NCBI GenBank assembly: GCA_017305715.1
Contig: JAFKKG010000029.1
Coordinates: forward strand, 1-64,000
Length of the DNA: 64,000 nucleotides
DNA from: Hyphomicrobiales bacterium
GTDB taxonomy: Bacteria; Pseudomonadota; Alphaproteobacteria; Rhizobiales; Xanthobacteraceae
Reading direction: 5' to 3'
Every line of letters begins with the position of its first letter. Within the stretch, counting starts at the first letter, position 1. The notes under the pieces are model-generated. The model ran no database searches, had not been told where the DNA came from, and saw only the letters and a list, made by a program, of their open reading frames with translations. A program made the position numbers and the translations under genes. Of this stretch, positions 8,990 through 24,996 are shown piece after piece.

Positions 8990-9026
8990 GCCCCCATAAC
9001 GTCAAAAAAAACGAGAGTGAGCTCAA

Positions 9027-10214
9027 ATGGAACCGGTGATCATCGCTGGCGTCGGGATGATTCCCTTCACCAAGCCAGGAGCAAGCGAGTCATATGACAT
9101 CATGGGGGCCAGGGCAGCGAAGGCCGCTCTCGGTCACGCAGGGCTCGAATATCCGCAAGTTCAGATGGCGTATGCGAGCTATGTGTACGGCGACTCGTGC
9201 TCGGGGCAGGCTGCTCTCTACCACGTTGGCATGACCGGGATCCCGATCGTCAACGTCAACAACATGTGCAGCAGCGGTTCTAGCGCGTTTGCCATGGCGA
9301 CACAGGCGATCCGAACCGGGATGGCCGATTGCGTGCTCGCGGTTGGTTTCGAGCAGATGGTTCCCGGCGCGCTCGACTCCATCTTCCCCGATCGACCAGG
9401 CCCTCAGCAAAGGCATATCGACCTTATCGCAAGAGTGATGAAGCTCACGCCCGACGAGCGTAAGATCCCGCCGGCATTGCAGGTGTTCGGCAGTCAGGTT
9501 GATCTGCTCAGGACGCATTATGGTGTTAGCGACCGGGCGCTTGCTCGAATAACGGTGAAGGCGCACAGGCACGCGCAAAACAGCCCGTTCGCGATCTTCA
9601 AGAACCCTCTGAACGAGGAAGACGTTATCGCGTCGCCGGACTTGCTCCGCGGGTTGCGCAAATTGCACGCCTGCCCGCCGAGCTGCGGCGCCGCAAGCGT
9701 GATCATATGCACTCCTGCGTTCGCGAGGAAGCACGGCATTCGCGACGATGTCAGACTCGCGGGCCAGGGCTGGGTTTCCGACCGCGCTGACGGCTTCGGC
9801 GATGACCTTCTTGACACCACCTTCGTCGGACTCACCAAGGACGCGGCGCATCGCGCGTACGAGGAGGCCGCCGTCGATCCACGAGACGTGGACGTGATCG
9901 AATTGCATGACTGCTTCTCAAGCAATGAGATCATTTCCTACTACGGCCTCGGACTATGCGATCTCGACGACGCAGAGCGGTTCGTCATGGACGACCAGAA
10001 CACCTACGGCGGGACATTTGTCGTCAATCCATCGGGCGGGCTTCTTTCAAAGGGGCATCCACTCGGCGCCACGGGACTGGCCCAGATTACTGAACTAACC
10101 TGGCAACTGCGCGGCGAGGCGCAAAGGCGCCAAGTCGAAAACGCGCGAGTCGCGCTCCAGCATAACGTCGGCTTGGGAAGTGCGGCCTTCGTGAACATTC
10201 TGAAGAAAGTTTAG
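9027..10214 (+). CDS. Thiolase family protein, SCP-x type
   Basis: 395-residue thiolase-fold protein. The nucleophilic cysteine is Cys81 in NNMCSSGSSAF. HDCFSSNE and GGLLSKGHPLGATGLAQ mark the SCP-x/lipid-carrier subfamily. The C-terminal region reads ALQHNVGLGSAAF, so the second catalytic cysteine of classical thiolases is absent, as is usual in this subfamily. SCP-x-type thiolases cleave branched or steroid-side-chain 3-ketoacyl-CoA. It lies 37 bp after the acyl-CoA dehydrogenase, so the two are likely consecutive steps. Confidence 0.87.
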   Translation: MEPVIIAGVGMIPFTKPGASESYDIMGARAAKAALGHAGLEYPQVQMAYASYVYGDSCSGQAALYHVGMTGIPIVNVNNMCSSGSSAFAMATQAIRTGMADCVLAVGFEQMVPGALDSIFPDRPGPQQRHIDLIARVMKLTPDERKIPPALQVFGSQVDLLRTHYGVSDRALARITVKAHRHAQNSPFAIFKNPLNEEDVIASPDLLRGLRKLHACPPSCGAASVIICTPAFARKHGIRDDVRLAGQGWVSDRADGFGDDLLDTTFVGLTKDAAHRAYEEAAVDPRDVDVIELHDCFSSNEIISYYGLGLCDLDDAERFVMDDQNTYGGTFVVNPSGGLLSKGHPLGATGLAQITELTWQLRGEAQRRQVENARVALQHNVGLGSAAFVNILKKV

Positions 10215-10271
10215 GGGATCGTCGTCCGGCGGGAGCGGAAGATCGAACATACCGTTCAAGGGAGGTAGTTT

Positions 10272-11378
10272 ATGAAGAAGCCTGTCGTCGTGTGCGGAGC
10301 CAGCGGCTACACCGCAAAACTGATCATCGAGTTTCTTCGCAGTTTTCAGGTTCCATTCATTGCAGCCGGGCGAAATCGCGACCGCGTCGAAGCCGCAATG
10401 AAGTTGATTCCGGGCATTGAAACGGCCGACTACGAAATCGCCGAGCTGCCCACCGACGTCGCTGATCTCAAGAAGCTCTTCGCGGGCTCGAAGGTCGTTT
10501 GCAACACGGTCGGGCCATTCGTTCAGCATGCAGAACCGACGATCCAAGCAGCGCTGGAGGCAGGGTGCCACTACCTGGACACTACCAATGAGCAGAATTA
10601 CATGATGCCGATGCGCGATAAATATGGCGCGGAATTCGCTCGGAAGCAGCTGTTGCTCGCGCCGAGCACCGCGCATATGTGCACCATCATGGAGACGGCG
10701 GCGGAGGCGTGCCTTGCAGAGTCCGAGGTCGATACGATCGAGGGCGTCTGCATCGTTAGTGGCACGCCGACGCCCGGCTCGACACAAACCTTCATTCAGA
10801 GCGTGACCGCCGAAGAGCGGTATCTGGAAGGCGGCGTATTGCAGCTATGGCGTCCATGCCACAGCGCAGAAGTCAGGGTGCCGTTCACCGACCGCACGCT
10901 CCTGGCTCTGCCTTGGGGCGGCTCCGGTCTTCCGCTCTGGTATCAGGACGATCCGAGAGTGCAGAGCGTGAGGACAATGGCTGCATTCACCAATCGCGAT
11001 CTGATGGAAGGCGTGCTCAAGATCTACAGTCATTATCACGCGAACCTTAGGCAATTGCCCGAAGACGGGCAACGCGAAGCGTTGGCTCGGATCGCCGCCG
11101 GCATGCAGCCGGGCGCGCCGCCTCGTGAGAATCCCATGATCCACCGCAACTGGGACACGATCATCGGCTCAAGCACCACGAAGACGGTCCGCTACACGAT
11201 CTACAGCCACTGCGGTTATCAGATTACCGGCCTTCTACAAGCATTCGCTGCGAACTGGCTGATCAAGCATCCGCCGCGCGCTTTCGGCTTCCAGGGCGCG
11301 GCTCATGCCTTCGGGTATGAACGCATCCTGAGTGTGCTCGAGAAGTTCGGTTACGGGAAGCTTGTGAGGGGCAATTGA
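10272..11378 (+). CDS. Saccharopine-dehydrogenase-like NAD(P)-binding protein (DUF5938-like)
   Basis: 368 residues beginning with a Rossmann nucleotide-binding motif (VVVCGASGYTAKLIIEFL) and continuing like the saccharopine dehydrogenase/trans-acting enoyl reductase superfamily (CNTVGPFVQHAEPTIQAALE, then GCHYLDTTNEQ). The C-terminal half is of the DUF5938 kind and has no recognised catalytic motif. AAGGGAGG lies just upstream of the start. It sits inside a CoA-ester catabolic operon, so a redox step on a pathway intermediate is inferred. The substrate is unknown. Confidence 0.75.
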   Translation: MKKPVVVCGASGYTAKLIIEFLRSFQVPFIAAGRNRDRVEAAMKLIPGIETADYEIAELPTDVADLKKLFAGSKVVCNTVGPFVQHAEPTIQAALEAGCHYLDTTNEQNYMMPMRDKYGAEFARKQLLLAPSTAHMCTIMETAAEACLAESEVDTIEGVCIVSGTPTPGSTQTFIQSVTAEERYLEGGVLQLWRPCHSAEVRVPFTDRTLLALPWGGSGLPLWYQDDPRVQSVRTMAAFTNRDLMEGVLKIYSHYHANLRQLPEDGQREALARIAAGMQPGAPPRENPMIHRNWDTIIGSSTTKTVRYTIYSHCGYQITGLLQAFAANWLIKHPPRAFGFQGAAHAFGYERILSVLEKFGYGKLVRGN

Positions 11379-12952
11379 CCGAAATGTCTATGATCGATTT
11401 CTTCGATTACGCTTGCGCCAATTGGCCAAACAACGAGTTCATCGTCTTCGGAGAGACGAAGATCTCATACGCCGAGGCGCAGGTGACGACCCGCCAAATT
11501 GCAAACGGGCTTGCGTCCCTCGGTTGCTCCAAAGGCGCAAAGGCGGCCGTGTTGTCGGGCAACGATCCGATTGCATGGCTGACCGTTCTCTCGATATGGC
11601 GAGCCGGAATGACATACGTCCCGCTCAATCCGCGGGACCCAATGGCCCACAATGCATCGTTGCTGAAGCAATTCGACTGCGATGTCCTCTTCTTCCAACC
11701 GGAAATTGCGGGCGAGCTGTCAAAACATAAGGCGGAACTGGATCATATCAAACACTTCGTTTCGCTGGGAAAGACGACCGACCTCATCTCGGACGCGCGT
11801 TTGCTGGACGAGTTCGTTGCCAGCCAACCGACCTCGTCCGAAAGCGTTGCAGTTGCGATGGACGACGTATGCATCATCACGCCGACGGGCGGGACGACCG
11901 GAAAGCCAAAAGGCGTCATGATGACGAACCGCAACCTGCAAATGATGTTCGCGAACTGGCTCCAGTTCATGCCCTATTTGCCAGGCGAATTCCCGGTCGC
12001 GCTGCTCGCCGCGCCGATCACTCATGCGGCAGGACCGCTCTCCATGCTGAGCACCCTTCGCGGCGGGAAAGTCGTAGTCATGTCGCGTGTCGACCCGATC
12101 GCCATCCTCGACACGATCCAGGAGCTGGGGGTCACCGAGCTATTCCTGCCGCCTACTGCAATCTACAGCCTGCTCGATACCCCCGGCGTGGACTCCAGAG
12201 ACTACAGCTCGCTCAAGTATTTCATCTACGCGGCTGCGCCGATGGCGCCGGAGAAGCTTAGGCGCGCCCTTGCAACCTTCGGACCGGTCATGATGCAAGG
12301 CTATGGGCAATCCGAGGCGACTGGCGCCATCAGCTGCCTTCGCCCGGAAGATCACCTAGCAAATGGCGAATTTGCATCCGAAGAGCGCCTGTCGTCTTGC
12401 GGCCGCGTATTTCCGCTTGTCCGGGTGACCATTCGCGACGAAGCGAACAATGAGTTGCCCAACGGCGAAACCGGCGAGATCTGCGTCGCCGGCGATAATG
12501 TGATGAAGGGCTACTACAACGACAAGGAACGCACCGATGAGGCGTTGGTCGACGGATGGCTCCGTACCGGGGATGTCGGTCATTTCGACAAGGACAATTT
12601 CCTCCATATCACGGACCGAAAGAAGGACATGATCGTCACGGGCGGGTACAATGTCTATTCCGCCGAGATCGAACGCGTCATCAACGGGATCGCAGGCGTG
12701 TTTGAATGCGCGGTGATCGGAGTTCCTGATGAGAGATGGGGCGAAGCGGTCACAGCCGTCATCCAGCTTGGGGGCGGCGCGACTCTCACAGCCGACGCCA
12801 TTATCGCCGAGTGCAGGGACAAGCTCGGTCCCGTGAAGACGCCCAAGAACGTCGAATTCGTCGAACGCCTGCCGCGAAGCATCGTCGGAAAAGTCCTGAA
12901 ACGTGAGCTTCGTGCCGCGTACTGGGACGGAAAAGCCCGAAACGTGAACTGA
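11375..12952 (+). CDS. Acyl-CoA synthetase (AMP-forming, ANL superfamily)
   Basis: 525 residues. All ANL motifs are present: the phosphate loop TPTGGTTGKPKG (about residue 170), YGQSEAT, the GWLRTGDVG hinge aspartate region, and the C-terminal catalytic lysine in RSIVGKVLKREL. The TTG start overlaps the preceding stop by four bases; an ATG nine bases downstream (11384) is an equally good start. It activates a carboxylic acid as its CoA thioester in the cytoplasm, feeding the dehydrogenase and thiolase of this operon. Closest in style to medium/long-chain or cyclohexanecarboxylate-type ligases. Confidence 0.88.
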   Translation: MTEMSMIDFFDYACANWPNNEFIVFGETKISYAEAQVTTRQIANGLASLGCSKGAKAAVLSGNDPIAWLTVLSIWRAGMTYVPLNPRDPMAHNASLLKQFDCDVLFFQPEIAGELSKHKAELDHIKHFVSLGKTTDLISDARLLDEFVASQPTSSESVAVAMDDVCIITPTGGTTGKPKGVMMTNRNLQMMFANWLQFMPYLPGEFPVALLAAPITHAAGPLSMLSTLRGGKVVVMSRVDPIAILDTIQELGVTELFLPPTAIYSLLDTPGVDSRDYSSLKYFIYAAAPMAPEKLRRALATFGPVMMQGYGQSEATGAISCLRPEDHLANGEFASEERLSSCGRVFPLVRVTIRDEANNELPNGETGEICVAGDNVMKGYYNDKERTDEALVDGWLRTGDVGHFDKDNFLHITDRKKDMIVTGGYNVYSAEIERVINGIAGVFECAVIGVPDERWGEAVTAVIQLGGGATLTADAIIAECRDKLGPVKTPKNVEFVERLPRSIVGKVLKRELRAAYWDGKARNVN

Positions 12953-13006
12953 CGACCAGGACGTGCGCTCGCGGCGGCAGTTCGAGCGAAAGACAGGAGC
13001 GATGGC

Positions 13007-13819
13007 GTGGAATCTGATTTCAGCATCGACAAGAAGGTGGTGGCGATCACCGGAGCGGCGTCCGGGATTGGAAGGGCTTTGGCCGTCCGAATGGCAGGGG
13101 CTGGCAGCCGGCTTGCGCTGGCGGACGTCGACCTGGCGGGCCTCCAGGAGACGTTGTCGTTGTTGCCGGGAGGCGTAGACGCGCGCGTGTATCCTGTTGA
13201 TGTTTCGTCTAGAGATGCCGTTTTCAATTTCGCCGACGATGTCGTTCGTGATTTCGGCGCCGTTGACTATGTGATCAACAATGCCGGGACTGCCTTCCTC
13301 GCGACTTTTGAACACATCACGCTCGAGCAGATAGATAGAATCATCGCAGTGAACCTTTGGGGCGTCATTTACGGTTCCAAGGCCTTCCTGGAAAAGATGC
13401 TCCCGCGGCGCAACGGTTGTATCGTCAACATATCCAGCGTGTTCGGCCTTCTCGCCACGCCGTGCTCGGTCGCCTATACGATTTCGAAATTCGGGGTGCG
13501 CGGCCTGACCGAAACGCTCTGGCAGGAACTTGACGGCACCGGAGTGCGCGCCGTACTCGTCCATCCGGGCGGCATCAATACCAATATTTCGAACGGCTCA
13601 AAGGCGGCTTACGACGCCGACTTCGAACGCAAGGTCATGAAAGCGAACTTGGCGCAGATGACAACTGCGCCGGACAACTGCGCCGAACAGATCGTGCAAG
13701 GACTGCTGCGCGGTCACAAACGGCTCCTTGTCGGCAACAGTGCGAAGACGCTGCACGTAATCTCTCGGCTCTTACCGAATTCGTACGGCTACCTGATCAA
13801 GAAGAAGCTCGGATTCTAG
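13007..13819 (+). CDS. Short-chain dehydrogenase/reductase
   Basis: 270-residue SDR with ITGAASGIGRALAV near residue 12, INNAG near residue 90, the active-site serine in NISSVFG and the YTISK tetrad. The GTG at 13007 is the start in frame; an ATG at 13002 is out of frame. The C-terminal extension (SRLLPNSYGYLIKKKLGF) resembles acetoin-dehydrogenase-like SDRs. Last clear gene of the CoA operon, likely oxidising a hydroxyacyl or alcohol intermediate. Confidence 0.85.
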   Translation: MESDFSIDKKVVAITGAASGIGRALAVRMAGAGSRLALADVDLAGLQETLSLLPGGVDARVYPVDVSSRDAVFNFADDVVRDFGAVDYVINNAGTAFLATFEHITLEQIDRIIAVNLWGVIYGSKAFLEKMLPRRNGCIVNISSVFGLLATPCSVAYTISKFGVRGLTETLWQELDGTGVRAVLVHPGGINTNISNGSKAAYDADFERKVMKANLAQMTTAPDNCAEQIVQGLLRGHKRLLVGNSAKTLHVISRLLPNSYGYLIKKKLGF

Positions 13820-14244: not shown

Positions 14245-16416
14245 CTAAAGGTCGAGTTTGAGAATCCTTGATTGGGATCGCGAACAGCACACGGCGATCA
14301 CTTCATTCGAGGCTTTCTCGGTATCGGTCAGCACCATATCACGGTGGTCCGGACGGCCCTCGATGACCTTTGCGACACAGGTTCCGCATACACCGGTTTG
14401 ACATGCCGTCTCCACTTCAATGCCTTCGCGTTGGAGAGCAGAGAGTATCGTTTCGGTACAGCCAACCTCGATTGACAGGCCGGAGCGAGTTGCAACAACG
14501 GTGAAGGGCGAACCCGTCGTGTCGATTTCCGCTCCGAAATGCTCTTGGTGAAAACGCTCTTTCGTCACGCCGACACGGCGCGTTGCTTCTTCAATGAACG
14601 CCATATATCCGCGCGGTCCGCAAACGTAGACATGGCAATCGCTGTTCGCTGAACGCAGGATATTCTCCGCATCGAGAAGCTTTCCGTCCTGCTCATCGTC
14701 GATATGGAGGACGATCTTGTCGCGGAACGGCAAAGCGTCGAGTTCTCTCGAAAATGGAATCCGTAGACGTGAACGTGCGGAAATGTGCCACGTAAACGCG
14801 CGGCCCAATTCGTGGAGACGCCACGCCATCGCCAGCAACGGTGTCAATCCTATCCCGCCGGAAAAGAGCAGGATGGAATTCGCCTCCTCATTCAGCGGGA
14901 AGTGATTGCGGGGTATGCCGATCTGGATCTTTGAGCCGACTTGATACTTACGGTGAACTTCGACGGAGCCCCCGCGCGATTTCGCTTCTTTCTGTACTGC
15001 AATCAGGTACGTCTTCTCGCTGACACGCCCGGTCAATGAATACTGACGTACGAGACCTGAACGAACGTGCAGGTCGATATGCGCCCCAGGGGCCCATAGG
15101 GGAAGAGCCGTGTCTCCATCAGCCGCAACAGCCAGGGAGATAATACCGTCCCCAATCTCGCGGCGCTCGACGACGCGTGCTTGTATGAGTTGAGAGCGAG
15201 CCTGCTGCGGCTGTGCGCGATCGGATTTCGGCGTCACGGTCCCGGCTCCGCGCTGAAATCGAGCAGGAAGCGATTTGAAGGCATAGATCGTGTTGTTCAG
15301 GGCGACTGTCGGTTCGCCGGTGTGTATCCGCTCCACCCGAGGGAGCATGGCTTTCAGCAGAGCGACCATTTCGAGTTGCGCCAGGTGCATTCCGACGCAC
15401 ATATGGATACCACTTCCGAATCCGAGATGTCGCTTTGGATTTCGGGTCACGCGGAACGTATCCGGTTCGTCGAATACACGCTCGTCTCGATTGGCGGATG
15501 CATAAAGCACCATGACGCGCGCGCCCTGTTCGACCGTGTGGTCACCGACTTGGACATCTCGCGTTGCATGCCGTGAGAATGATCGGATAGGCGCACCGAG
15601 CCGTACGGCTTCATTGACCGCGTTCGTGAGTAGATCAGGCCGCTTCCGCAGACTGGTCCACTCGTCGGGATTCTTGGATAGTTGCCAGATTAGTTGGCCG
15701 GTCGCCGATATCGTGGTGTCAAGGCTCGGATTGATGTAGTCTCGGATGCAGAACGGTGCGAGTTCGGCGGAAAGAGCGCCATCGTCGACCAGTTCGTGTA
15801 TTCGACGTGTCCAGCTTCCTTCCTTTAGGTCGCTTCGCTTTGCATGCTTATTGATGAAGTCGCGCTGCTCGAGGAAGATGCGGAGTGCCTTCTGACCGCG
15901 GGGGTTTTGAACTCCCAAGAGATCGAAGGCCGCGCCACCCCAGCGCAACATGTTCTCTTTTCCGAAGTCGGGGAGTCCAACCAGGTCGCGAACGACGGTA
16001 AGCGGAAGATGCGACGCGAGATCCGCCATCACATCGAAGTCACCCTGTTCGATGAGCCGGTCGATGAGATCTTCCGCCAAGGCCTCGATCAGCGGCCGTA
16101 CCTCTTCTAGCGCGCCCGGTAAGAGTGGCGCAGCCATTGCGGAGCGGATGGCGCTGTGTCGCTCTCCATCGGAGGCGATCGAGTTCCCCTGCATCAGATC
16201 GCATGCAGTCTTATCGGCCGCGACCCCGCGGCCGCTGCAGAAGGTCTCAGGATCCCGAAGACAGTCTGCGACTTCCTGATATCGGGTCAGCGCGTAATTG
16301 CCGTGTCGCGGCAGCCATACGAGCGGTCCCAGCTTCCGCATCGCGACATAGTGCGGCCATGGTTCACGGATGAATTCGTCCGAATAGAAATCGACGTCAT
16401 AGCTGGGAGCTGCCAT
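14245..16416 (-). CDS. Self-sufficient cytochrome P450: P450 fused to FMN/NAD(P)H/2Fe-2S reductase
   Basis: 723 residues in two modules. Residues 1-390 are a P450: ExxR is EAVR (269-272) and the heme loop is FGSGIHMCVG with Cys340. The I-helix reads NPSLDTT (229-235), keeping the acid-alcohol pair but with Pro-Ser where Ala/Gly-Gly is usual. Residues 405-723 are a phthalate-dioxygenase-reductase-type module: flavin motif RQYS (457-460), nucleotide loop SGGIGLTPLL, and a plant-type 2Fe-2S centre with Cys672, 677, 680 and 710. This is the class VII (CYP116B/P450RhF) arrangement, slightly shorter than its roughly 770-780 residues. The P450 half reads more like CYP199-type aromatic-acid enzymes. 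Divergent from the LuxR-type gene at 16527. Confidence 0.9.
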   Translation of the reverse strand: MAAPSYDVDFYSDEFIREPWPHYVAMRKLGPLVWLPRHGNYALTRYQEVADCLRDPETFCSGRGVAADKTACDLMQGNSIASDGERHSAIRSAMAAPLLPGALEEVRPLIEALAEDLIDRLIEQGDFDVMADLASHLPLTVVRDLVGLPDFGKENMLRWGGAAFDLLGVQNPRGQKALRIFLEQRDFINKHAKRSDLKEGSWTRRIHELVDDGALSAELAPFCIRDYINPSLDTTISATGQLIWQLSKNPDEWTSLRKRPDLLTNAVNEAVRLGAPIRSFSRHATRDVQVGDHTVEQGARVMVLYASANRDERVFDEPDTFRVTRNPKRHLGFGSGIHMCVGMHLAQLEMVALLKAMLPRVERIHTGEPTVALNNTIYAFKSLPARFQRGAGTVTPKSDRAQPQQARSQLIQARVVERREIGDGIISLAVAADGDTALPLWAPGAHIDLHVRSGLVRQYSLTGRVSEKTYLIAVQKEAKSRGGSVEVHRKYQVGSKIQIGIPRNHFPLNEEANSILLFSGGIGLTPLLAMAWRLHELGRAFTWHISARSRLRIPFSRELDALPFRDKIVLHIDDEQDGKLLDAENILRSANSDCHVYVCGPRGYMAFIEEATRRVGVTKERFHQEHFGAEIDTTGSPFTVVATRSGLSIEVGCTETILSALQREGIEVETACQTGVCGTCVAKVIEGRPDHRDMVLTDTEKASNEVIAVCCSRSQSRILKLDL

Positions 16417-16518: not shown

Positions 16519-16540
16519 CTGTCATTATGATTGATGACAG
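16519..16540. promoter_or_regulatory. Inverted repeat enclosing the start codon of the LuxR-type gene
   Basis: CTGTCAT-N8-ATGACAG is a perfect 7-bp inverted repeat. Its spacer contains the ATG (16527-16529) of the downstream regulator, and there is no obvious SD. It lies in the short divergent promoter between the P450 gene and the regulator, so it could be an autoregulatory operator or an RNA hairpin hiding the start. Confidence 0.45.
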
Positions 16541-17357
16541 ATCGAAGGATCCGGAGCAGGACGCCCTCGCGCACTGCATCCTCGCCATCGGGACGCCGAC
16601 GTTCTACCGCGCGTTGCTGCGATTTGGTCAGGTTGTATGCGGATTCGAGCATCTCAGTGTTTTCGGGTTCACACCTGCATTCGAACCCCGCATCGCGGTT
16701 CTCGAAGGGCTGGATGACCCGAGCATTACGAGTCTGTCCGCGCAGTCCTACATGGGGTTCGGCTACCATAGCTCCGATCCGGCGCCCGCGCTAATACGCG
16801 AACTGGGACACGCCGCCGACGCACCAGCCGTTCTATCGTTATGGGCGCGGGACATCAAAGACGCTGCATATCGTCGCGGGATATACGAAAAGTGGGGGCT
16901 CGATGGCCGAGTGTCGCTCATCGGCAGGGCTGGCGGGCATTGGCGTTCCGTCAATTTCTACAAGCATGTGCAGAAAGGGGGGCTGACGGAGGAGGACGTC
17001 GTAGCTCTGGCGAAAAGAGCTCAGGTGTTATTTGCCGCTGAAACGCGGCATCTTGCGTTGAGCGAACGTCAGTCGTCGCCAACCGGCGCTACCGTTCCAT
17101 CACTCGATTTGCTTCAAGATCTTCTGACGACGATAGCGCCCACGCTGAGCCCGCGCGAAACGGAAGTCTGCGCGCGAGCGCTGCAGGGGATGACGGGAGA
17201 GGGTACCGCGCTCGATCTCAAGATTAGCGATGCGACGGTCGCGACTCTCAGGCGACGAGCATACGCAAAGCTTCATATATCAAATCTGAATGAGCTGTTC
17301 GCGCTCTGCTTGTCGGCGGCCGCCCAGAGTGCACGGCGCGAAAACGATACGGTATAA
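16527..17357 (+). CDS. LuxR-type helix-turn-helix regulator, divergent from the P450
   Basis: 276 residues. The C-terminal GerE domain (about 195-265) has LSPRETEVCARALQGMTGEG and SDATVATLRRRAYAKLHI. The recognition helix differs from the common TVKxHxxxIxxKL pattern: it has TVATLRRRAYAKL. The N-terminal 180 residues are an unnamed domain, plausibly a ligand sensor. Because the P450 gene starts only 110 bp away on the other strand, P450 control is the best guess. The start codon lies inside an inverted repeat. Confidence 0.8.
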   Translation: MIDDRSKDPEQDALAHCILAIGTPTFYRALLRFGQVVCGFEHLSVFGFTPAFEPRIAVLEGLDDPSITSLSAQSYMGFGYHSSDPAPALIRELGHAADAPAVLSLWARDIKDAAYRRGIYEKWGLDGRVSLIGRAGGHWRSVNFYKHVQKGGLTEEDVVALAKRAQVLFAAETRHLALSERQSSPTGATVPSLDLLQDLLTTIAPTLSPRETEVCARALQGMTGEGTALDLKISDATVATLRRRAYAKLHISNLNELFALCLSAAAQSARRENDTV

Positions 17358-17405: not shown

Positions 17406-18218
17406 CTAGTCTGATGCGGACCCGTTGCCGCCCGAGAGTGTCGTGGCTGTGTCGACGACGATCTGCGCGAGCGCTTTTTCAGAAATTGGAGGCGGGCGCG
17501 ATGACGAATACGCAAGGACCAAGCTGCCTAAAGCGGTTCGATCGCGGTCGAAGACGGGTGCGGCAATTCCCGTTACATCCGGATCAAGTTCGTTTCGGGA
17601 GATGTAGTATCCCCGACGGCGGGTTTCCTGAAGAAGCGCTTTGAATTCATCCCAGTTGGCGGCAATACGTTTCAGGTCTGGATCGCCTTCGTGCCGTTCG
17701 AAAATTCGTTTGAGCTGGCGGCGATCGAGCACCGACAGAATGGCGCGCGCCTGGGAGCCGCGAAAGAGCGGCATCGGCCGACCTCTCGTGAAAATCAAAT
17801 CGAGCGGTTCCCGACCGACTGCGTGAAAAACGTTCACGATGGTTTCGTTGTAAATATTACAAAGAAGGACATTGCAGCCGGTTGTTTCCGCGAGACGTCG
17901 CAGGACGTCTTCGCTCGCGTGCATGATCGGATCGCACGACCGGATGATGAATTCGAGTTCAATCACCTTCGGGCCCAGAACGTATAGCCCCGTTCGGCGT
18001 GACAGCAGGCCGGACTCGCAGAGTTCTCCCAAATAGCGATAGGCGGTCGGTTCGCTCGCTCCAATCAGCTGAGCCACTTCTTCGACCGTGAGAGCGGGCC
18101 GGCTGACCGAAAAGGCGTTGAGGACGAGGGACATACGCCCCAGCACCGAAGCCTCTCCCGGTCTTGGCGACACCCCGCGCGCGGCTTTGAAATCTTCAGA
18201 TTTCGACATTTTTATCAT
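17406..18218 (-). CDS. IclR-family transcriptional regulator
   Basis: 270 residues. The winged helix-turn-helix (about 25-85) contains LTVEEVAQLIGASEPTAYRYL. The effector domain (95-265) includes RGRPMPLFRGSQARAIL and DVTGIAAPVFDRDRTALGSL, as in IclR regulators of aromatic catabolism. ATG 18218 is the longest start; ATG 18209 is an alternative. Divergent from the binding-protein gene at 18314 and the likely regulator of the second transporter/monooxygenase operon. Confidence 0.88.
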   Translation of the reverse strand: MIKMSKSEDFKAARGVSPRPGEASVLGRMSLVLNAFSVSRPALTVEEVAQLIGASEPTAYRYLGELCESGLLSRRTGLYVLGPKVIELEFIIRSCDPIMHASEDVLRRLAETTGCNVLLCNIYNETIVNVFHAVGREPLDLIFTRGRPMPLFRGSQARAILSVLDRRQLKRIFERHEGDPDLKRIAANWDEFKALLQETRRRGYYISRNELDPDVTGIAAPVFDRDRTALGSLVLAYSSSRPPPISEKALAQIVVDTATTLSGGNGSASD

Positions 18219-18268: not shown

Positions 18269-18313
18269 TATTTGCGAAAGCGCCGCAACGACGGCCATAC
18301 GGGAGGAGTTACC

Positions 18314-19468
18314 ATGAAATTCATTGCACACCTTGCTGCTGCGATTACCGCAATGGTATGGGCCTCGGCAGCATTCGCCGATATCAACATCGGCGTCATC
18401 CTGTCCTTGACCGGTCCTGCGGCCTCTCTTGGTATCCCGGCGCGGAACACGGTTGAATTGTGGCCCAAGGAGATCGCCGGCCACAAAATCAATGTCACGA
18501 TCCTCGACGACGCCTCCGATCCGGGTGCAGCGACAACAGCCGCCCGCAAGCTCACCGCGGAAAACAAGGTCGACGTGATTGTGGGTCCTTCGATCACGCC
18601 CACATCGCTGGCCATCATGCAAGTGGCGGAGGAGACGGGTACGCCCGTCCTTACCCTCGCAGGCGGCGGCGCCATTATCGAGCCGATGACCGGACCGCGC
18701 CGCTGGATGTTCAAGATGCCGCCCAGCGAGGTCATTCCGCTACAGATGATTCTCGACGACATGCGGAGATCCAAGAAGACCAAACTCGCCATTGTGGCGG
18801 TAGGCAGCGCTTACGGCCAAACGTTTCTCGATGTCGCGAAAAGCCTTGTTGAGAAATACGGTGTTTCGATCACGGTAACGGAACGCTTCAACCCGACGGA
18901 TCCCAGTTTCGCTTCGCAGGCGTTGAAGATCCTAGCTGCGGCACCGGATGCCGTCTTTATCGCAGCAACAGGAACACCCGGCGCAACCCCGCAAATCGAA
19001 CTCAAGCGACGCGGATTTGTCGGGGCAACATATCAAACACAGGCGATCGCCAATTCCGACTTTTTACGGGTCGGCGGAAAAGAGGTTGAGGGAGCGCTGC
19101 TTCCAGTGTCGCCGCTCCTTGTTGCGGAGCAACTGCCAGATACGAACTCGGTAAAGACCGTGGCGCTCAATTACCTGAAAATGTACGAGGGCAAGTTTGG
19201 CCCGCAGTCTCGCTCGCTCTTCGGCGGGATGGCATGGGATTCACTCCTTTTCATCCAGGCCGCGCTGAAAGACGGCTCCGTGAAGGTCGCTTCGGGTACT
19301 CCGGAATTCCGTACGGCACTACGGGATCGCCTCGAGCAGATCAAGGACCTCGTCGTGACGCAAGGCGTCTACACCTTGTCTCCGACTGATCATAACGGTG
19401 CTGATGACCGTAGTCAGGTGATGGTCCGGATCGAAAATGGCGGCTGGCGCTACGTCGAGCCCAAGTGA
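18314..19468 (+). CDS. Branched-chain-type ABC transporter periplasmic binding protein
   Basis: 384-residue type I periplasmic binding protein with a Sec signal peptide (MKFIAHLAAAITAMVWASAAFA, cut after about residue 22) and mature start DINIGVILSLTGPAASLGIP. ATG 18314 is chosen over the frame opening at 18272 because GGGAGGAG precedes it and the signal peptide begins there. It starts a six-gene operon with a monooxygenase, a DUF2783 protein, LivH, a LivM-LivG fusion and LivF. The presence of the monooxygenase suggests an aromatic ligand. Confidence 0.9.
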   Translation: MKFIAHLAAAITAMVWASAAFADINIGVILSLTGPAASLGIPARNTVELWPKEIAGHKINVTILDDASDPGAATTAARKLTAENKVDVIVGPSITPTSLAIMQVAEETGTPVLTLAGGGAIIEPMTGPRRWMFKMPPSEVIPLQMILDDMRRSKKTKLAIVAVGSAYGQTFLDVAKSLVEKYGVSITVTERFNPTDPSFASQALKILAAAPDAVFIAATGTPGATPQIELKRRGFVGATYQTQAIANSDFLRVGGKEVEGALLPVSPLLVAEQLPDTNSVKTVALNYLKMYEGKFGPQSRSLFGGMAWDSLLFIQAALKDGSVKVASGTPEFRTALRDRLEQIKDLVVTQGVYTLSPTDHNGADDRSQVMVRIENGGWRYVEPK

Positions 19469-19495: not shown

Positions 19496-21223
19496 GTGTT
19501 TGTAGTGGAAAGCACAGTTCCCAATTTTGTGCATACGACACATCCTGTCACCGTTCCGCCGCTGGCAAATGGCCGGGAAATCGCACGGCGGCCGGTGCTG
19601 ATAGCCGGCGGCGGTCCTGTGGGCCTTGCGGTTGCGCTTGCTCTCGCAAACCGCGGGATTGCGGTCCTCGTCGTCGAGGCAGATCAAACGGTATGTGCCG
19701 GCAGCCGAGCAATCTGCCTGTCCCGTCGTACGCTCGAAATCCTTGAACGTTTGGGCGCTCTTACGCCGTTTCAGGAAAAAGGCTTGCCTTGGACGGGTGG
19801 ACGAAGTTTCCACCGGTCCGATGAAGTACTTCACTTCACCATGCCGAACGACAGGGATCAGCGGCTCGCGCCGATGACGAATTTGCAGCAGTACTATATC
19901 GAGCAATTCCTGCTCGATGCCGCTGCCAAATGCGATCCTAATCTTCTCGAAGTGAGGTGGGGGACGCGCGTCGACGGGCTGCATCAGGGCCGGGATGGTG
20001 TGGTCGTCGAACTTGCCACCGACACGGTCTCGTATGCGACCGAATGCGACTTCCTGGTCGCATGCGACGGGGCGCGAAGTCGGGTGCGACAAGCCGTCGG
20101 ACTCCGGATGAACGGTACGTCGTACGAGGGCCGATACGTCATCGTCGATATCGAGATCGATCTCGATCTTCCCACCGAGCGGTTGGCTTGGTTCGATCCG
20201 CCCAGCAATCCTGGTCGCACCATGCTGATGCACAAGCAGCCGGACAATATCTGGCGGCTCGACTATCAGCTTCATCCCACGGAAGATTCGGAGGAGATGA
20301 TCCGCGAAGACAGGGTGACGCCCGTCGTTGCTGCGCATCTTGCGATGATAGGAATTGATCGCCCGTGGCGACTGATCTGGACTAGCATGTACCGCGCGGC
20401 TGCAGTGTCTCTGGATAGCTACCGAAGTGATCGCGTTATTTTCGCCGGTGACGCGGCTCATTTGGTTCCCATCTTCGGGGTTAGAGGACTGAACAGCGGC
20501 TTTGACGACGCCTTCAATCTCGGTTGGAAGCTTGCGAGCGTTATTTCTGGATGTTCGCCCGACACGATTCTCGACACCTACAGCTTGGAACGTCGGCGCG
20601 CCTGGGAAGTAAACGTCACCAGTGCAATGAAGAGCACCGAATTCATGGCGCCGCCATCGCGCGGTTACGGGTTGATGCGAGACGCGGTGCTCTCGTTGGC
20701 CAAGGATCATCCCGCGATCGCGACGCTGATCGATCCCCGCCAATCCGCCCCGATCGCCTACGAAGGGTCGCGTTTGAACACCATTACACGTGACGAGAGC
20801 TCGTTCAAAGCCGGGCCTCGACCGGGCTCACCTCCCTTGGAGTGCCCGCTCATCGTCAACGGGAAGAAACGCTACCTTACCAGCGTTCTCGGCAGCGATT
20901 TCACGCTGGTTTGGAGTGGCGAAGGTGATTTGCCGTCGATGATAACGAACGAACTGCATTGCGCGATCAATCGGGGCCTGTCTGTCGTTCTGGTTACGAT
21001 CGGAGCAGCCTGGCCCTTGTCCGGGATCGTGGGTCAATTGCAGGCCTTGCGCGCCGAGGTCGTCGAGGGGCGTTTCACGGAACTATATGATGCGGCTCCT
21101 TCTGCCGCGTATCTCTTCAGGCCGGACGGGCATGTCTGTGCGCGCTGGCGCACTCTGCGACCGGGTGATCTATCCAGCGCAATTGATGCCGCGCTTGGCT
21201 GCGGAAAGGCCGACCGTTCATGA
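19496..21223 (+). CDS. FAD-dependent monooxygenase (PheA/TfdB/MhpA family)
   Basis: 575 residues. The dinucleotide-binding motif VLIAGGGPVGLAVALAL lies near residue 35. The second FAD motif, VIFAGDAAHLVPIFGVRGLN, lies near residue 320 and is followed by DDAFNLGWKLA. The C-terminal thioredoxin-like domain typical of phenol hydroxylase-type enzymes is present. GTG 19496 gives a roughly 30-residue leader before the FAD domain; GTG 19505 is possible. It would hydroxylate a phenolic or hydroxyaromatic acid with NAD(P)H and O2. It lies inside the transporter operon, and its stop overlaps the DUF2783 gene by four bases. Confidence 0.88.
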   Translation: MFVVESTVPNFVHTTHPVTVPPLANGREIARRPVLIAGGGPVGLAVALALANRGIAVLVVEADQTVCAGSRAICLSRRTLEILERLGALTPFQEKGLPWTGGRSFHRSDEVLHFTMPNDRDQRLAPMTNLQQYYIEQFLLDAAAKCDPNLLEVRWGTRVDGLHQGRDGVVVELATDTVSYATECDFLVACDGARSRVRQAVGLRMNGTSYEGRYVIVDIEIDLDLPTERLAWFDPPSNPGRTMLMHKQPDNIWRLDYQLHPTEDSEEMIREDRVTPVVAAHLAMIGIDRPWRLIWTSMYRAAAVSLDSYRSDRVIFAGDAAHLVPIFGVRGLNSGFDDAFNLGWKLASVISGCSPDTILDTYSLERRRAWEVNVTSAMKSTEFMAPPSRGYGLMRDAVLSLAKDHPAIATLIDPRQSAPIAYEGSRLNTITRDESSFKAGPRPGSPPLECPLIVNGKKRYLTSVLGSDFTLVWSGEGDLPSMITNELHCAINRGLSVVLVTIGAAWPLSGIVGQLQALRAEVVEGRFTELYDAAPSAAYLFRPDGHVCARWRTLRPGDLSSAIDAALGCGKADRS

Positions 21224-21432
21224 GTGTCTGGAGCCGGGATGAGCGCGAACGCGCTTACACGAACCTTTGTGATGCCGTGACGGCGGCTGGTGAAGACGAA
21301 GAGTCGTTGTTCCTTTCGCGTCTATGCCTCTTGCTGATGGAAGAGCTTGGCGACGCCGAAAAGTTCGAAGGAATACTAGCGCAAGCCCAACTCCAAAGTG
21401 ACAAAGGTCTCAGTCGGAGCGCTACGGAATGA
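21220..21432 (+). CDS. Small DUF2783-type protein
   Basis: 70 residues, mostly helical and acidic (LCDAVTAAGEDEESLFLSRL, then LLLMEELGDAEKFEGILAQA). The pattern matches the short DUF2783 family as I remember it, which is often found beside FAD monooxygenases. Both ends overlap neighbours by four bases (ATGA at each junction), tying its translation to the monooxygenase and to LivH. Function unknown; a small partner or stability factor of the monooxygenase is an inference from position. Confidence 0.7.
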   Translation: MSVWSRDERERAYTNLCDAVTAAGEDEESLFLSRLCLLLMEELGDAEKFEGILAQAQLQSDKGLSRSATE

Positions 21433-22472
21433 ACGGCAACATAGCGCTGCTTCTGATTCAGGATGGCCTTACCGTCGGCGCGATTTATGCACTCCTGGCG
21501 GTGGCCCTTGTCCTGGTTTTTACGGTCACGAGAATCATCTTCATTCCACAGGGTGAATTCGTTTCGTTCGGTGCCCTGACGCTCGCCGCATTGCAGACGG
21601 GGCAGGTGCCCAAGACGATATGGCTTCTGATCGCTCTCGCTTGTCTGGTCGCGGTTCGAGATTCCGTTCGGTGCATTCGCTCAGGAGAGGGATTGCGTGC
21701 TGCGCGCGGCATTCTCGTGAATGTCGTGGTATCGTTTGTGGTCTGTGGCCTCGTATACGTGCTGGCGCCTCTCCAGTTTCCGCTTTGGGCGGATGCGATC
21801 ATATCGGTCGTGGTCGTCGTGTTCATCGGTATCACGCTTTACCGACTGGCGTTCGAGCCTCTTCAGAGTGCCAGCATCCTGGTTCTGCTGATCGCTGCGG
21901 TCGGAGTTCATCTCGCCCTTACCGGCCTTGGCTTGGCTATGTTCGGGGCAGAAGGCTCCAGGACGCCGCCGATGTTCGATTTTCAAGGCCAACTCGGGCC
22001 GCTGCAAATCGGTGGTCAAAGCATCGCGATCTTTGTATCGGCAAGTGTCGCGATGGCAGCGCTATCTTTCTTTTTCGGCGCGACCCTCGGTGGAAAGGCC
22101 CTAAGGGCTACCGCAGCAAATCGCGTGGGGGCACGTCTGCTCGGCATACGAACGGCGCGGGCTGGTACACTTGCATTCGGCCTCGCCGCCGCACTCGGCG
22201 CGGCATCAGGCGTGCTGATCTCTCCGCTCTCCACGATCTATTACGATACCGGGTTTCTAATAGGTCTGAAGGGGTTCATTGCGGCGGTGATCGGAGGGCT
22301 CGTGAGCTATCCCCTTGCGGCCGTGGGAGCGCTCGCCATCGGATTGCTCGAGAGTTTTACGACTTTCGAAACGAGCAAACTCAAAGACGTCATCGTCTTT
22401 GCGCTCATCCTACCCGTCCTTTTGCTTGTGTCGTTCACACATCGTAGCAGCGGTGAGGAGCAAAACAATTGA
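21429..22472 (+). CDS. livH: ABC transporter permease, LivH family
   Basis: 347-residue inner-membrane permease, longer than the 285 residues of the first LivH here. It has LivH landmarks (QDGLTVGAIYALLAVALVLV; FIPQGEFVSFGALTLAAL; GLKGFIAAVIGGLVSYPLAA). The extra length is an insertion of two hydrophobic segments around residues 90-140, which is seen in some family members. It overlaps DUF2783 upstream and the LivM-LivG fusion downstream by four bases each. Confidence 0.88.
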   Translation: MNGNIALLLIQDGLTVGAIYALLAVALVLVFTVTRIIFIPQGEFVSFGALTLAALQTGQVPKTIWLLIALACLVAVRDSVRCIRSGEGLRAARGILVNVVVSFVVCGLVYVLAPLQFPLWADAIISVVVVVFIGITLYRLAFEPLQSASILVLLIAAVGVHLALTGLGLAMFGAEGSRTPPMFDFQGQLGPLQIGGQSIAIFVSASVAMAALSFFFGATLGGKALRATAANRVGARLLGIRTARAGTLAFGLAAALGAASGVLISPLSTIYYDTGFLIGLKGFIAAVIGGLVSYPLAAVGALAIGLLESFTTFETSKLKDVIVFALILPVLLLVSFTHRSSGEEQNN

Positions 22473-24265
22473 TCAGATCGTTTCGACAAGTTGGTCTTGA
22501 AACGTACGGCATTCTTGCTCTTGCCGGCGTCACGGTTGTCGTGCCGTTTCTGCCCATCTCGGAGTTTTGGGTAACGCTCGGCAATTATATTGGCATTTCC
22601 GCGCTCGTGGCGATCGGTCTGGTTCTTCTTACGGGTGCCGCCGGCATCACCTCATTTGGCCAGGCTGCGTTCGTCGGCATCGGTGCATACACGACGGCCT
22701 ACCTGACGACGGCACATGATGCGTCGGCTTGGCTTGGTCTCATTGCAGGACTTTGCGCCACGGGCGTTACAGCCGTCGTGCTCGGTGAACTGACGATGCG
22801 ATTGTCGGGGCATTTTCTTCCTCTTGGCACCTTGGCATGGGGATTGGCGTTGTACTTTCTGGCCGGAAATCTTGATTTCCTGGGTGGATACGACGGGATG
22901 ACCGGAATTCCTCCCATCCAATTGGGTCCGATCGCGCTTGATAAGGGACGACGCATATTCTGGCTGATATGGGCAATCGTGCTGATTGCGATCATCATCA
23001 CCGGAAACCTCATGCGGTCGCGGTCAGGTCGGGCTCTCCGGGCGCTTAAGGAAAGCGGAGCGCTTGCCGAGTCGATGGGCGTGAATACCGCTCGCGAAAA
23101 GCTCAAGGTCTTTGTCACTGCCGCGTTGCTCGCAAGCGTTGCCGGCTGGTTGTTTGCCCATATGCAGCGAACCGTGAACCCGACGCCATTTTCGGCGATG
23201 GCGAGTATCGAATACCTGTTGATGGCCGTCATCGGCGGATTAAGCTCCGTTTGGGGTGGATTGATCGGAGCGGCCGCAGTCCTGATTCTGAAAGATCTGC
23301 TTCAGCGATTGCTGCCGGTACTTTCTGCGCCGGTCGGCACTTATGAGATCGTGGTCTTTGGTGCGATCCTTGTCATACTCCTACAGTATTCGGCGCAGGG
23401 AATATGGGGCCTTTTAGTCCGCGCCTGTCGGCGACAGTCCAAGCCGCAAAGCGCTCCGTCGGTTACTTCCGCGAGTCTCCTCGACCATCGATCCAAGCCG
23501 AGGGTGGGTGAGCCAATCCTTCAGATCGAGGCCGTTCGACGAACGTTCGGCGGCCTCGTTGCGGTCAATGATGTGAGCTTTGGGGTTCGCGCTGGCGAGA
23601 TCGTCGGATTGATCGGTCCCAACGGAGCTGGAAAAAGCACGCTCTTTAATCTCGTGTCCGGAGCGTTGGCGCCGGTCAGCGGAACAGTCTCGCTGCTCGG
23701 AGACCGCAGGTACAAGCGAGGTGCGCGGCAAGTCGCGACTCTCGGTGTCTCCCGTTCCTTTCAGCATGTGAAGATGGATGCCGAGATGACCGTGCTGGAG
23801 AATGTAGCGCTCGGAGCTCATCTCCGCGGCAACAGGGGCCATTTGAGCGCGATGCTGGGCCTTGACCGAAAGGAAGAACGCGCGATCCACATGGAGGCGC
23901 GGCGTCAGTTGAGTGCGCTCGGGCTAAGTGATTTCGACGGCCATCCCGCCGGGGCTCTCGCGCTCGGGCAGCAACGCTTGATGGAGATCGCGCGCGCTCT
24001 TGCGGGGGATCCCATTCTTCTTCTCCTCGATGAACCTGCTGCGGGTTTGCGCCACGCCGAGAAGCAGGAGTTGGCCGCCGTGCTCAACCGAGTGCGCGCG
24101 GAAGGTTTAGCAATTCTGCTCGTTGAGCATGACATGGAGTTGGTAATGGGTCTGGCTGATCGACTGATCGTGCTCGACTTCGGTACCAAGATTGCCGAAG
24201 GCGTTCCAGATGACGTGCGTCGTGAACCGCGTGTCCTGGAGGCCTATCTCGGGAGTGTCGCGTGA
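22469..24265 (+). CDS. LivM-LivG fusion: permease joined to ABC ATPase
   Basis: 598 residues. The first 330 are a LivM-type permease (GAAGITSFGQAAFVGIGAYTT; IEYLLMAVIGGLSSVWGGLIG). A 20-residue linker leads to a LivG-type ATPase from about residue 350, with Walker A GPNGAGKST near 383, signature LALGQQRLMEIARAL and Walker B ILLLLDEPAAG. The TTG start overlaps the livH stop by four bases. Such fusions are known in the family. The neighbouring transporter at 0.7-5.4 kb keeps the two proteins separate, so the two systems are not recent duplicates. Confidence 0.88.
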   Translation: MIRSFRQVGLETYGILALAGVTVVVPFLPISEFWVTLGNYIGISALVAIGLVLLTGAAGITSFGQAAFVGIGAYTTAYLTTAHDASAWLGLIAGLCATGVTAVVLGELTMRLSGHFLPLGTLAWGLALYFLAGNLDFLGGYDGMTGIPPIQLGPIALDKGRRIFWLIWAIVLIAIIITGNLMRSRSGRALRALKESGALAESMGVNTAREKLKVFVTAALLASVAGWLFAHMQRTVNPTPFSAMASIEYLLMAVIGGLSSVWGGLIGAAAVLILKDLLQRLLPVLSAPVGTYEIVVFGAILVILLQYSAQGIWGLLVRACRRQSKPQSAPSVTSASLLDHRSKPRVGEPILQIEAVRRTFGGLVAVNDVSFGVRAGEIVGLIGPNGAGKSTLFNLVSGALAPVSGTVSLLGDRRYKRGARQVATLGVSRSFQHVKMDAEMTVLENVALGAHLRGNRGHLSAMLGLDRKEERAIHMEARRQLSALGLSDFDGHPAGALALGQQRLMEIARALAGDPILLLLDEPAAGLRHAEKQELAAVLNRVRAEGLAILLVEHDMELVMGLADRLIVLDFGTKIAEGVPDDVRREPRVLEAYLGSVA

Positions 24266-24996
24266 CAAGCCATCTGCTTAGTCTGCAAGATGTTACGATC
24301 AAGTACGGCCAGATCGAAGCCGTCCATCGAGCGTCACTTGATGTTCCAGCCGGAGCGATTACGAGCATAATCGGACCCAACGGAGCCGGGAAGAGCACAA
24401 CCCTGAGCGCCATATCTGGTCTCCTGCGTTGTACCGGGCATCTCCGCTTCGATGGCCAGCAACTTCACCATCAAACGGTGGAAGATCGGGTCGATGCGGG
24501 CCTGATTTTCGTCCCCGAGCGACGCGAGTTGTTCACGTCCATGACAGTCGCTGATAACCTTCAGCTCGGTAGCTATCGATTCCGGCGCGAGTCGTCCGGT
24601 CGGCGGACTGCGGATCTGGAAGCCGTCTACGCATTGTTTCCGCGGCTCAGGGAGCGCCAGGCGCAACTTGCCGGCACGCTATCTGGCGGGGAACGCCAGA
24701 TGCTGGCGATCGGCCGCGCCTTGATGTGTCGTCCAAAGCTGCTCATGCTCGATGAGCCGAGCTTGGGGCTGGCTCCTCGCATTGTGAAAGAGATCTTTCA
24801 GATCATCAGCCAATTGCGCGCGAAGGGCGTAGCCGTGCTGTTGGTCGAACAAAACGCAAGAGCAGCGCTTGAAATCGCGGATACGGCCTATGTCCTCGAA
24901 AGAGGAACGATCGTCATGAACGGGGCGGCCCGAACGTTGGCATCGGATCCAAAGCTTATCGATACATATCTCGGGCTCCCGAGTGAGGCGCGATGA
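24262..24996 (+). CDS. livF: ABC transporter ATPase, LivF family
   Basis: 244 residues; GTG start overlapping the fusion stop by four bases. Walker A GPNGAGKST near residue 40, signature LSGGERQMLAIGRAL, Walker B LLMLDEPSLGLAP, and the LivF-typical VEQNARAALEIADTAYVLE. Last gene of the second uptake operon and the end of the catabolic island before the degraded mobile-element remnants. Confidence 0.9.
   Translation: MTSHLLSLQDVTIKYGQIEAVHRASLDVPAGAITSIIGPNGAGKSTTLSAISGLLRCTGHLRFDGQQLHHQTVEDRVDAGLIFVPERRELFTSMTVADNLQLGSYRFRRESSGRRTADLEAVYALFPRLRERQAQLAGTLSGGERQMLAIGRALMCRPKLLMLDEPSLGLAPRIVKEIFQIISQLRAKGVAVLLVEQNARAALEIADTAYVLERGTIVMNGAARTLASDPKLIDTYLGLPSEAR

Follow-up and report, generated by a model that had tools for sequence, protein, structure and literature searches.

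A P450-reductase fusion of class VII layout with a heme domain from a proline-motif clade related to CYP199A

Excerpts of PMC11889516 and PMC12126322 illustrate class VII self-sufficient P450s by the CYP116 family. In the 64,000-nucleotide stretch of DNA analyzed here (the window), a soil-bacterium gene was described in an earlier note as joining a P450 to a phthalate dioxygenase reductase (PDR)-type module, with a CYP199-like heme domain and an I-helix reading PSLDT. The locus thus raises the question of whether such a fusion, tested here as a class VII layout, arose independently of CYP116B, and whether its I-helix signals a different oxygen-activation chemistry.

The open reading frame starts with ATG, contains no internal stops and encodes 723 amino acids; a purine-rich stretch that precedes it, ggaagaggaaac, could be a ribosome site. 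In PDB searches, residues 4-387 matched CYP199A4 (250 bits for the S244D mutant 7n60 and 248 bits for 4dnz and 5kdb), residues 411-723 matched the PDR 2pia (170 bits), and the whole-length matches were the class VII enzymes CYP116B46 and CYP116B5. The Pfam P450 and Fer2 models exceeded their cut-offs, with NAD_binding_1 slightly below (21.6 vs 22); together with the PDB split, they bear out the joining of a P450 to a PDR module. No Pfam flavin-domain model matched the window fusion, so that FMN is predicted from PDR homology. The heme, flavin-NAD(P)H and 2Fe-2S domains accordingly lie on one chain in class VII order, the flavin part by homology. Residues common to the window protein and a 52% identical fusion homologue include E269/R272, F333-G334-G336-H338-C340-G342 and P230-S-L-D-T234 in the heme half, and R457-Q-Y-S-L461, G521-I-G-x-T-P526, C599-G-P601 and Cys 672/677/680/710 in the reductase half (Table 1).

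An AlphaFold2 model, built on an alignment of 50 sequences drawn from the window and the sampled loci, had a mean pLDDT of 91 and a pTM of 0.68, with low confidence (pLDDT <50) in the linker at residues 398-407; the modelled I-helix, residues 217-248, passes through PSLDT. By E-value, the top Foldseek matches were full-length CYP116B5 and CYP116B46 (TM 0.50-0.51, rmsd 16-20 A), followed by CYP199A4, PbdA and CYP199A2 (rmsd 1.9-2.3 A, 32-34% identity). The TM and rmsd values of the former mean that the domain arrangements of the model and of full-length CYP116B do not match, and the arrangement in the predicted model is uncertain.

Table 1. Features of the fusion gene and of its neighbourhood in the window (positions are those of the whole stretch)
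Feature	Position	Strand	Evidence
P450-PDR fusion gene, 723 aa	14245..16416	-	intact ORF; PDB, Pfam and structure matches
P450 heme domain, residues 1-388	15253..16416	-	CYP199A4 alignment over 4-387; phylogeny
I-helix motif PSLDT, residues 230-234	15715..15729	-	sequence; helix 217-248 in model; clade-wide
Heme-ligand loop FGSGIHMCVG, residues 333-342, Cys340	15391..15420	-	sequence
Linker, residues 389-409	15190..15252	-	pLDDT <50 at 398-407; 10% identity to 74% orthologue
PDR module, residues 410-723: flavin, NAD(P)H, C-terminal 2Fe-2S	14248..15189	-	2pia and CYP116B46/B5 reductase matches; Fer2
2Fe-2S ligands C672-x4-C677-x2-C680	14377..14403	-	sequence; Fer2 Pfam match; kept in L002
Fourth 2Fe-2S ligand C710	14287-14289	-	sequence; Fer2 Pfam match; kept in L002
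LuxR-type (GerE) regulator, divergent from fusion	16527..17357	+	Pfam; 70% in L151, also beside the fusion there
IclR-type regulator, possible cluster part	17406..18218	-	Pfam; no match in L151 or L152
ABC-transporter substrate-binding protein	18272..19468	+	Pfam Peripla_BP_6; 72% in L151
FAD-dependent aromatic hydroxylase-like monooxygenase	19496..21223	+	Pfam FAD_binding_3; PDB relatives; 66% in L151
Small ORF	21220..21432	+	54% over 57 aa in L151; no Pfam match
Branched-chain-amino-acid-type ABC permeases and ATPases, 3 genes	21429..24996	+	Pfam; 66-72% in L151

The heme domain was placed with a sample of 113 rows, references included, restricted to P450 matches covering >320 query residues; 18 loci were skipped as repeats of larger loci or near copies (L100 by choice). 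Removal by hand of 23 of the 113 rows, thinning dense groups, gave a 90-row quick tree, and more careful trees were built from 49 and 36 chosen rows, with L151 and L153 added to the latter. Long-branch warnings were issued for two reductase trees, the 90-row and 49-row heme trees and a quick tree of the L099 and L172 fusions. In the 49-row tree, all 34 rows with a proline at the first motif position (the P-motif) formed one clade (99/98), with the motif absent outside it. Within this tree, the window protein and its close kin (lineage A), represented by six fusions, formed a seven-row group with the unfused L052 (100/99). CYP116B was remote (100/100), its junction with L122 bearing the long-branch warning, and CYP199A constituted a separate clade (100/100) with the window heme outside it and related to it. 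The quick tree agreed, with a P-motif group of 65 rows (SH-aLRT 95) that includes L121, which reads SSLET. The 36-row tree united seven lineage A fusions and L052 (100/98), its forks uniting all P-motif rows standing at <80. These trees assign the window heme to a P(S/A)x(D/E)T clade, related to CYP199A and outside CYP116B. A CYP116B heme for this fusion was rejected by all three trees, and the earlier expectation of a non-CYP116B heme was thereby confirmed by the phylogeny that had been proposed as its check.

Its description as CYP199-like also holds, in that CYP199A is nearest among solved structures by both PDB and Foldseek searches. When two unfused members of the clade were used as PDB queries (E <= 1e-55), the best matches were CYP199A chains, and no solved member of the clade was found. 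P450s are conventionally assigned to one family above 40% identity and to one subfamily above 55%. The window heme, with 32-34% identity to solved CYP199A and 39% to the genome copy L015, falls below both values relative to CYP199A. Besides A, an excerpt of PMC8197338 names the CYP199 subfamilies B and J-M. Our comparison covered subfamily A, and a CYP199 name is possible for the window heme, whose clade has no formal name here.

Proline occupied the first motif position in 75 of 115 aligned P450 rows (67 unfused, 8 fusions), as PSLDT in 62, PSLET in five, PALDT and PSIDT in three each, and PSMDT and PSVDS in one each; because the rows were gathered with clade queries, this proportion describes the clade and not the P450 superfamily. 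In the window's genome, 15 of the 16 Pfam-matched P450s were read, and the fusion was the one among them with proline there. PSLDT does replace the usual (A/G)Gx(D/E)T in the sequence, as had been claimed. With 67 of the 75 proline rows unfused, a fusion-specific PSLDT was discarded as a candidate. The window protein also keeps the acid-alcohol pair Asp233-Thr234, which we take to correspond to P450cam 251-252. Given that PSLDT is not tied to fusion and that Asp-Thr is kept, the different oxygen-activation chemistry that the earlier note had drawn from the motif is unsupported. A PSLDT common in the clade had been named beforehand as speaking against that note, and it is common in the heme's own clade. 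The chemistry of the window fusion is probably ordinary.

Lineage A comprises at least seven full fusions of close kin, the window included, in a collection scan that covered the best 80 of 559 relatives. Identity to the window protein is 74% for the fusion of G317 (L151), 52% for that of G049/B. uaiense (L046), 51% for a Pseudorhodoplanes MAG (L045), 49% for a proteobacterial MAG (L047), 46% for an Aquabacterium MAG (L049) and 45% for a betaproteobacterial MAG (L048). The window genome (7.45 Mb) is congeneric with G049. A scan of the genus found a match in 31 of 265 genomes, the window's own included, and a full-length uninterrupted fusion in four, i.e., the window's own, G317, G049 and G270; the threshold used, E <= 1e-100, passes over more distant relatives, for instance a fusion of CYP116B type in G012. 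At class level (E <= 1e-95), two of 385 genomes matched, these being the window's own and one with an unfused P450. As dS was saturated, the window and G317 genes were compared by codon-position identities (80/87/41%). The heme halves were 81% identical, the reductase halves 70% and the 21-residue linkers 10%; both enzymatic halves have been kept and the linker has not. A chance ORF is excluded by the 74% identical full-length orthologue and the codon-position identities, and an assembly artefact by this orthologue and five more lineage A fusions. The unfused P450 L052:4797-6122 sits inside the lineage A hemes as sister to L048/L049, which implies that the fusion was either lost once or made twice. 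L052 itself may represent reductase loss or a state preceding a second fusion.

For the reductase half, trees were built after L114_15003 (a long branch) and then L137_1 had been removed. The CYP116B-type reductases, L099 included, formed a branch of their own (99/98), and lineage A fell inside a 14-row group (84/95). This group also holds PDRs adjoining P450s (L041, L032) and five reductases from Rieske loci (L125-L127, L128 and L043), where Rieske-type ORFs were recognized by a CxH-x15-17-CxxH motif search and not by a profile. Among the sampled unfused reductases, those nearest to lineage A have genes next to those of Rieske-type oxygenases. The lineage A reductases grouped with L125-L127 (82/95) and formed no clade of their own in that tree; one change suffices to unite them in 30% of bootstrap trees, and they stood alone at 79/48 in an earlier tree. 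Forcing them together with the CYP116B-type reductases, a set that includes L099 with its non-CYP116B heme, was 18-25 log units worse (AU p 0.087 and 0.051). A separate origin from the CYP116B reductase is, at these p values, likely. The proposal of an independent fusion lineage is therefore upheld for the heme half by the trees, while for the reductase half a joining with the CYP116B type was unrejected at 5%.

The same clade holds another fusion. G270 encodes an uninterrupted P450-PDR chain (lineage B; L153:9014-11461), 39% identical to the window protein, with P450, flavin, NAD and Fer2 domains by Pfam. Its heme grouped with the unfused L039/L040 (100/100), and union with lineage A was rejected (AU p 2e-35); its reductase half grouped with other Bradyrhizobium PDRs, and union with the lineage A reductases was likewise rejected (p 0.004). 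With both halves separate from lineage A, the P-motif clade has made this fusion at least two times. Further P450-PDR fusions were seen in Marmoricola endophyticus (L099:7680-10175) and on a plasmid of Streptomyces sp. NBC_00841 (L172:1830-4196). Their hemes are neither CYP116B nor P-motif, but a quick tree put their reductase halves on the branch of CYP116B (SH-aLRT 97). Grouping of the L172 heme with CYP116B was rejected (p 0.001), and the window's genome encodes a P450 other than the fusion that shares 50% identity with the L099 heme. These two fusions may reflect an exchange of hemes on a single reductase.

Unfused members of the clade have other partners nearby. A regular-expression search within 5 kb picked up a ferredoxin-like small ORF in 35 of 72 P-motif rows (five of them fusions), and chance must account for some of these matches. 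Such an ORF lies directly downstream in 16 of 67 unfused rows, where it begins on the P450 strand at a distance of 950-1310 bases from the recorded start of the P450 ORF. We inspected nine of the 16 and ran five of the nine through Pfam, which returned ferredoxins in all five. Two unfused P-motif P450s, L041 and L050, adjoin a PDR gene. Judged by gene content, redox partners vary within the P-motif clade between a separate ferredoxin, a neighbouring PDR and a fused PDR. The joining of adjacent genes fits as a route to fusion; the sampled loci contained no direct fusion intermediate for lineage A or B. Side-by-side P450-PDR pairing also occurs with P450s that carry the usual motif (AGIDT and AGHDT), in L032:9796-11988 (G031) and L171:5575-7968 (Cupriavidus necator N-1 plasmid pBB1), where the PDR gene lies directly downstream. 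Two MAG contigs titled Bifidobacterium breve (L061, L091) hold P-motif P450s, and these names may be wrong.

The neighbouring genes bear on the role of the enzyme. The FAD monooxygenase of the window also scored over the NCBIfam NF006002 cut-off. At the G317 locus, the same transporter, FAD-monooxygenase, LuxR and small-ORF genes are present in another order at 54-74% identity, the IclR gene being absent from the G317 stretch taken; among the loci compared, this gene set recurs in G317 only. The neighbourhoods of the remaining lineage A fusions differ, although binding-protein, IclR or FAD-monooxygenase genes recur in some (partly by eye). The FAD-monooxygenase and ABC-transporter genes common to the locus of the orthologue suggest, as neighbours, a role in aromatic catabolism. 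On the other side of the fusion, positions 7721-13819 hold acyl-CoA dehydrogenase, thiolase-like, DUF5938, CoA ligase and SDR genes, which had no match in the G317 stretches around the orthologue and are perhaps a separate pathway.

We consider it probable that the window fusion is a catalytically self-sufficient P450 of the P-motif, CYP199A-related clade, working as follows. A P450 of this clade would have acquired a PDR module by gene fusion, and electrons would pass, as they do in CYP116B, from NAD(P)H through FMN and 2Fe-2S to the heme of the same chain. Cleavage of O2 would follow ordinary thiolate-heme chemistry and involve Asp233-Thr234, and Pro230-Ser231 would alter the shape of the I-helix groove over the heme. 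From the neighbouring genes, the enzyme would most likely hydroxylate or O-dealkylate an aromatic compound imported by the cell, with the nearby FAD monooxygenase then acting on the phenolic product.

Alternatively, the protein might be a divergent CYP116B, with one class VII origin and a heme that was replaced or evolved fast. CYP116B46 and CYP116B5 are the best full-length PDB and Foldseek matches, the AU test leaves the reductase halves inseparable at 5%, and heme replacement seems to occur in L099 and L172 (quick tree). We nevertheless judge this reading quite unlikely, since the heme lies far from the 100/100 CYP116B branch, CYP116B rows read AAHET and not PSLDT, and the lineage A reductases occupy another branch in the best trees. 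It is very unlikely that PSLDT denotes a different oxygen activation, i.e., altered proton delivery, or peroxygenase-like or oxidase behaviour. Asp-Thr is kept, the motif is clade-wide and includes P450s with an adjacent ferredoxin gene, and the fused copies retain a full-length reductase half by alignment; in its favour, Pro-Ser stands for Ala/Gly-Gly at the groove, and the fusion alone among the 15 P450s read in its genome has this proline. A literature search on I-helix proline in P450s yielded nothing usable. A further scenario, in which a clade-wide Pro-Ser changed proton delivery or coupling and relaxed donor demand, allowing a partner swap from ferredoxin to PDR and at least two fusions, so that class VII would be a recurrent design, strikes us as unlikely.

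Doubtful, too, is a reading of the fusion as a CYP199A-like para-methoxybenzoate demethylase with an added reductase, even with CYP199A4/A2 and PbdA as the closest solved heme folds. By alignment, the CYP199A carboxylate contacts Arg, Ser and Ser (PbdA 84, 87 and 237) are unconserved in the window: the loop that bears Arg84 and Ser87 in PbdA lacks three residues here, and Asp226 stands in the Ser237 column. Para-substituted benzoates are hence not a safe substrate guess, and the CYP199-type para-benzoate specificity entertained earlier is doubtful. The Q76 column, which adjoins the gap replacing the CYP199A Arg, has a basic residue in four of the six other lineage A fusions, a point in favour of the demethylase. 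By its title, 7n60 is an engineered CYP199A4 S244D solved with 4-methoxybenzoate, so that an Asp at this position need not bar benzoates, and with the basic residues at the Q76 column carboxylate substrates are conceivable; the genome copies L015 and L021 have Ser there, and a literature search for CYP199A4 S244D gave no matches. The presence in the same genome of a canonical CYP199A-like P450 (L168; G000 contig C40; RSLLSAGLDTT) also counts against such a role for the fusion.

Taking the window fusion, then, as a self-sufficient P450 of the P-motif clade, its architecture is known and its lineage appears to be new. A search of the open-access literature for PDR-fused P450s outside CYP116 returned no such paper among the matches listed, as judged by titles and abstract starts, and the excerpts of PMC11889516, PMC12126322 and PMC8197338 do not describe this lineage. 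The class VII layout has thus been found on another P450 clade, where it was made at least two times. With unfused, side-by-side and fused relatives in one clade, nature provides a series for testing the effect of fusion on coupling and rate; the clade is also a source of new heme domains from which self-sufficient biocatalysts could be built, and it gives a natural panel for the role of a proline in the oxygen-binding groove.

Like CYP116B (P450 RhF, CYP116B5, CYP116B46, CYP116B234), the window protein places heme, FMN/NAD(P)H and 2Fe-2S domains on a single chain with a linker between the halves. It differs in a heme from another clade, with PSLDT in place of AAHET, and in a reductase that lies on another branch in the best trees, although joining was unrejected at 5%. 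Its C-terminal half shares fold, motifs and domain order with PDR 2pia and the reductases encoded beside Rieske-type oxygenases, except that here the PDR is fused to a P450. The CYP199A enzymes (CYP199A2, CYP199A4, PbdA) provide the nearest solved heme fold and form a related clade; their I-helix reads AGLDT vs PSLDT, and the A-G-(L/I)-D-T motif that marks membership is absent from the window. CYP199A P450s use separate redox partners, whereas the window P450 is fused to its own. A comparable system is PbdAB of Rhodococcus jostii RHA1, in which, according to an excerpt of PMC11530827, a CYP199A P450 works with NADH and a separate flavin/Fe-S reductase, PbdB. A reductase of this kind would also drive the P450 of the window fusion; in PbdAB, the two are separate proteins and PbdA has the CYP199A active site.
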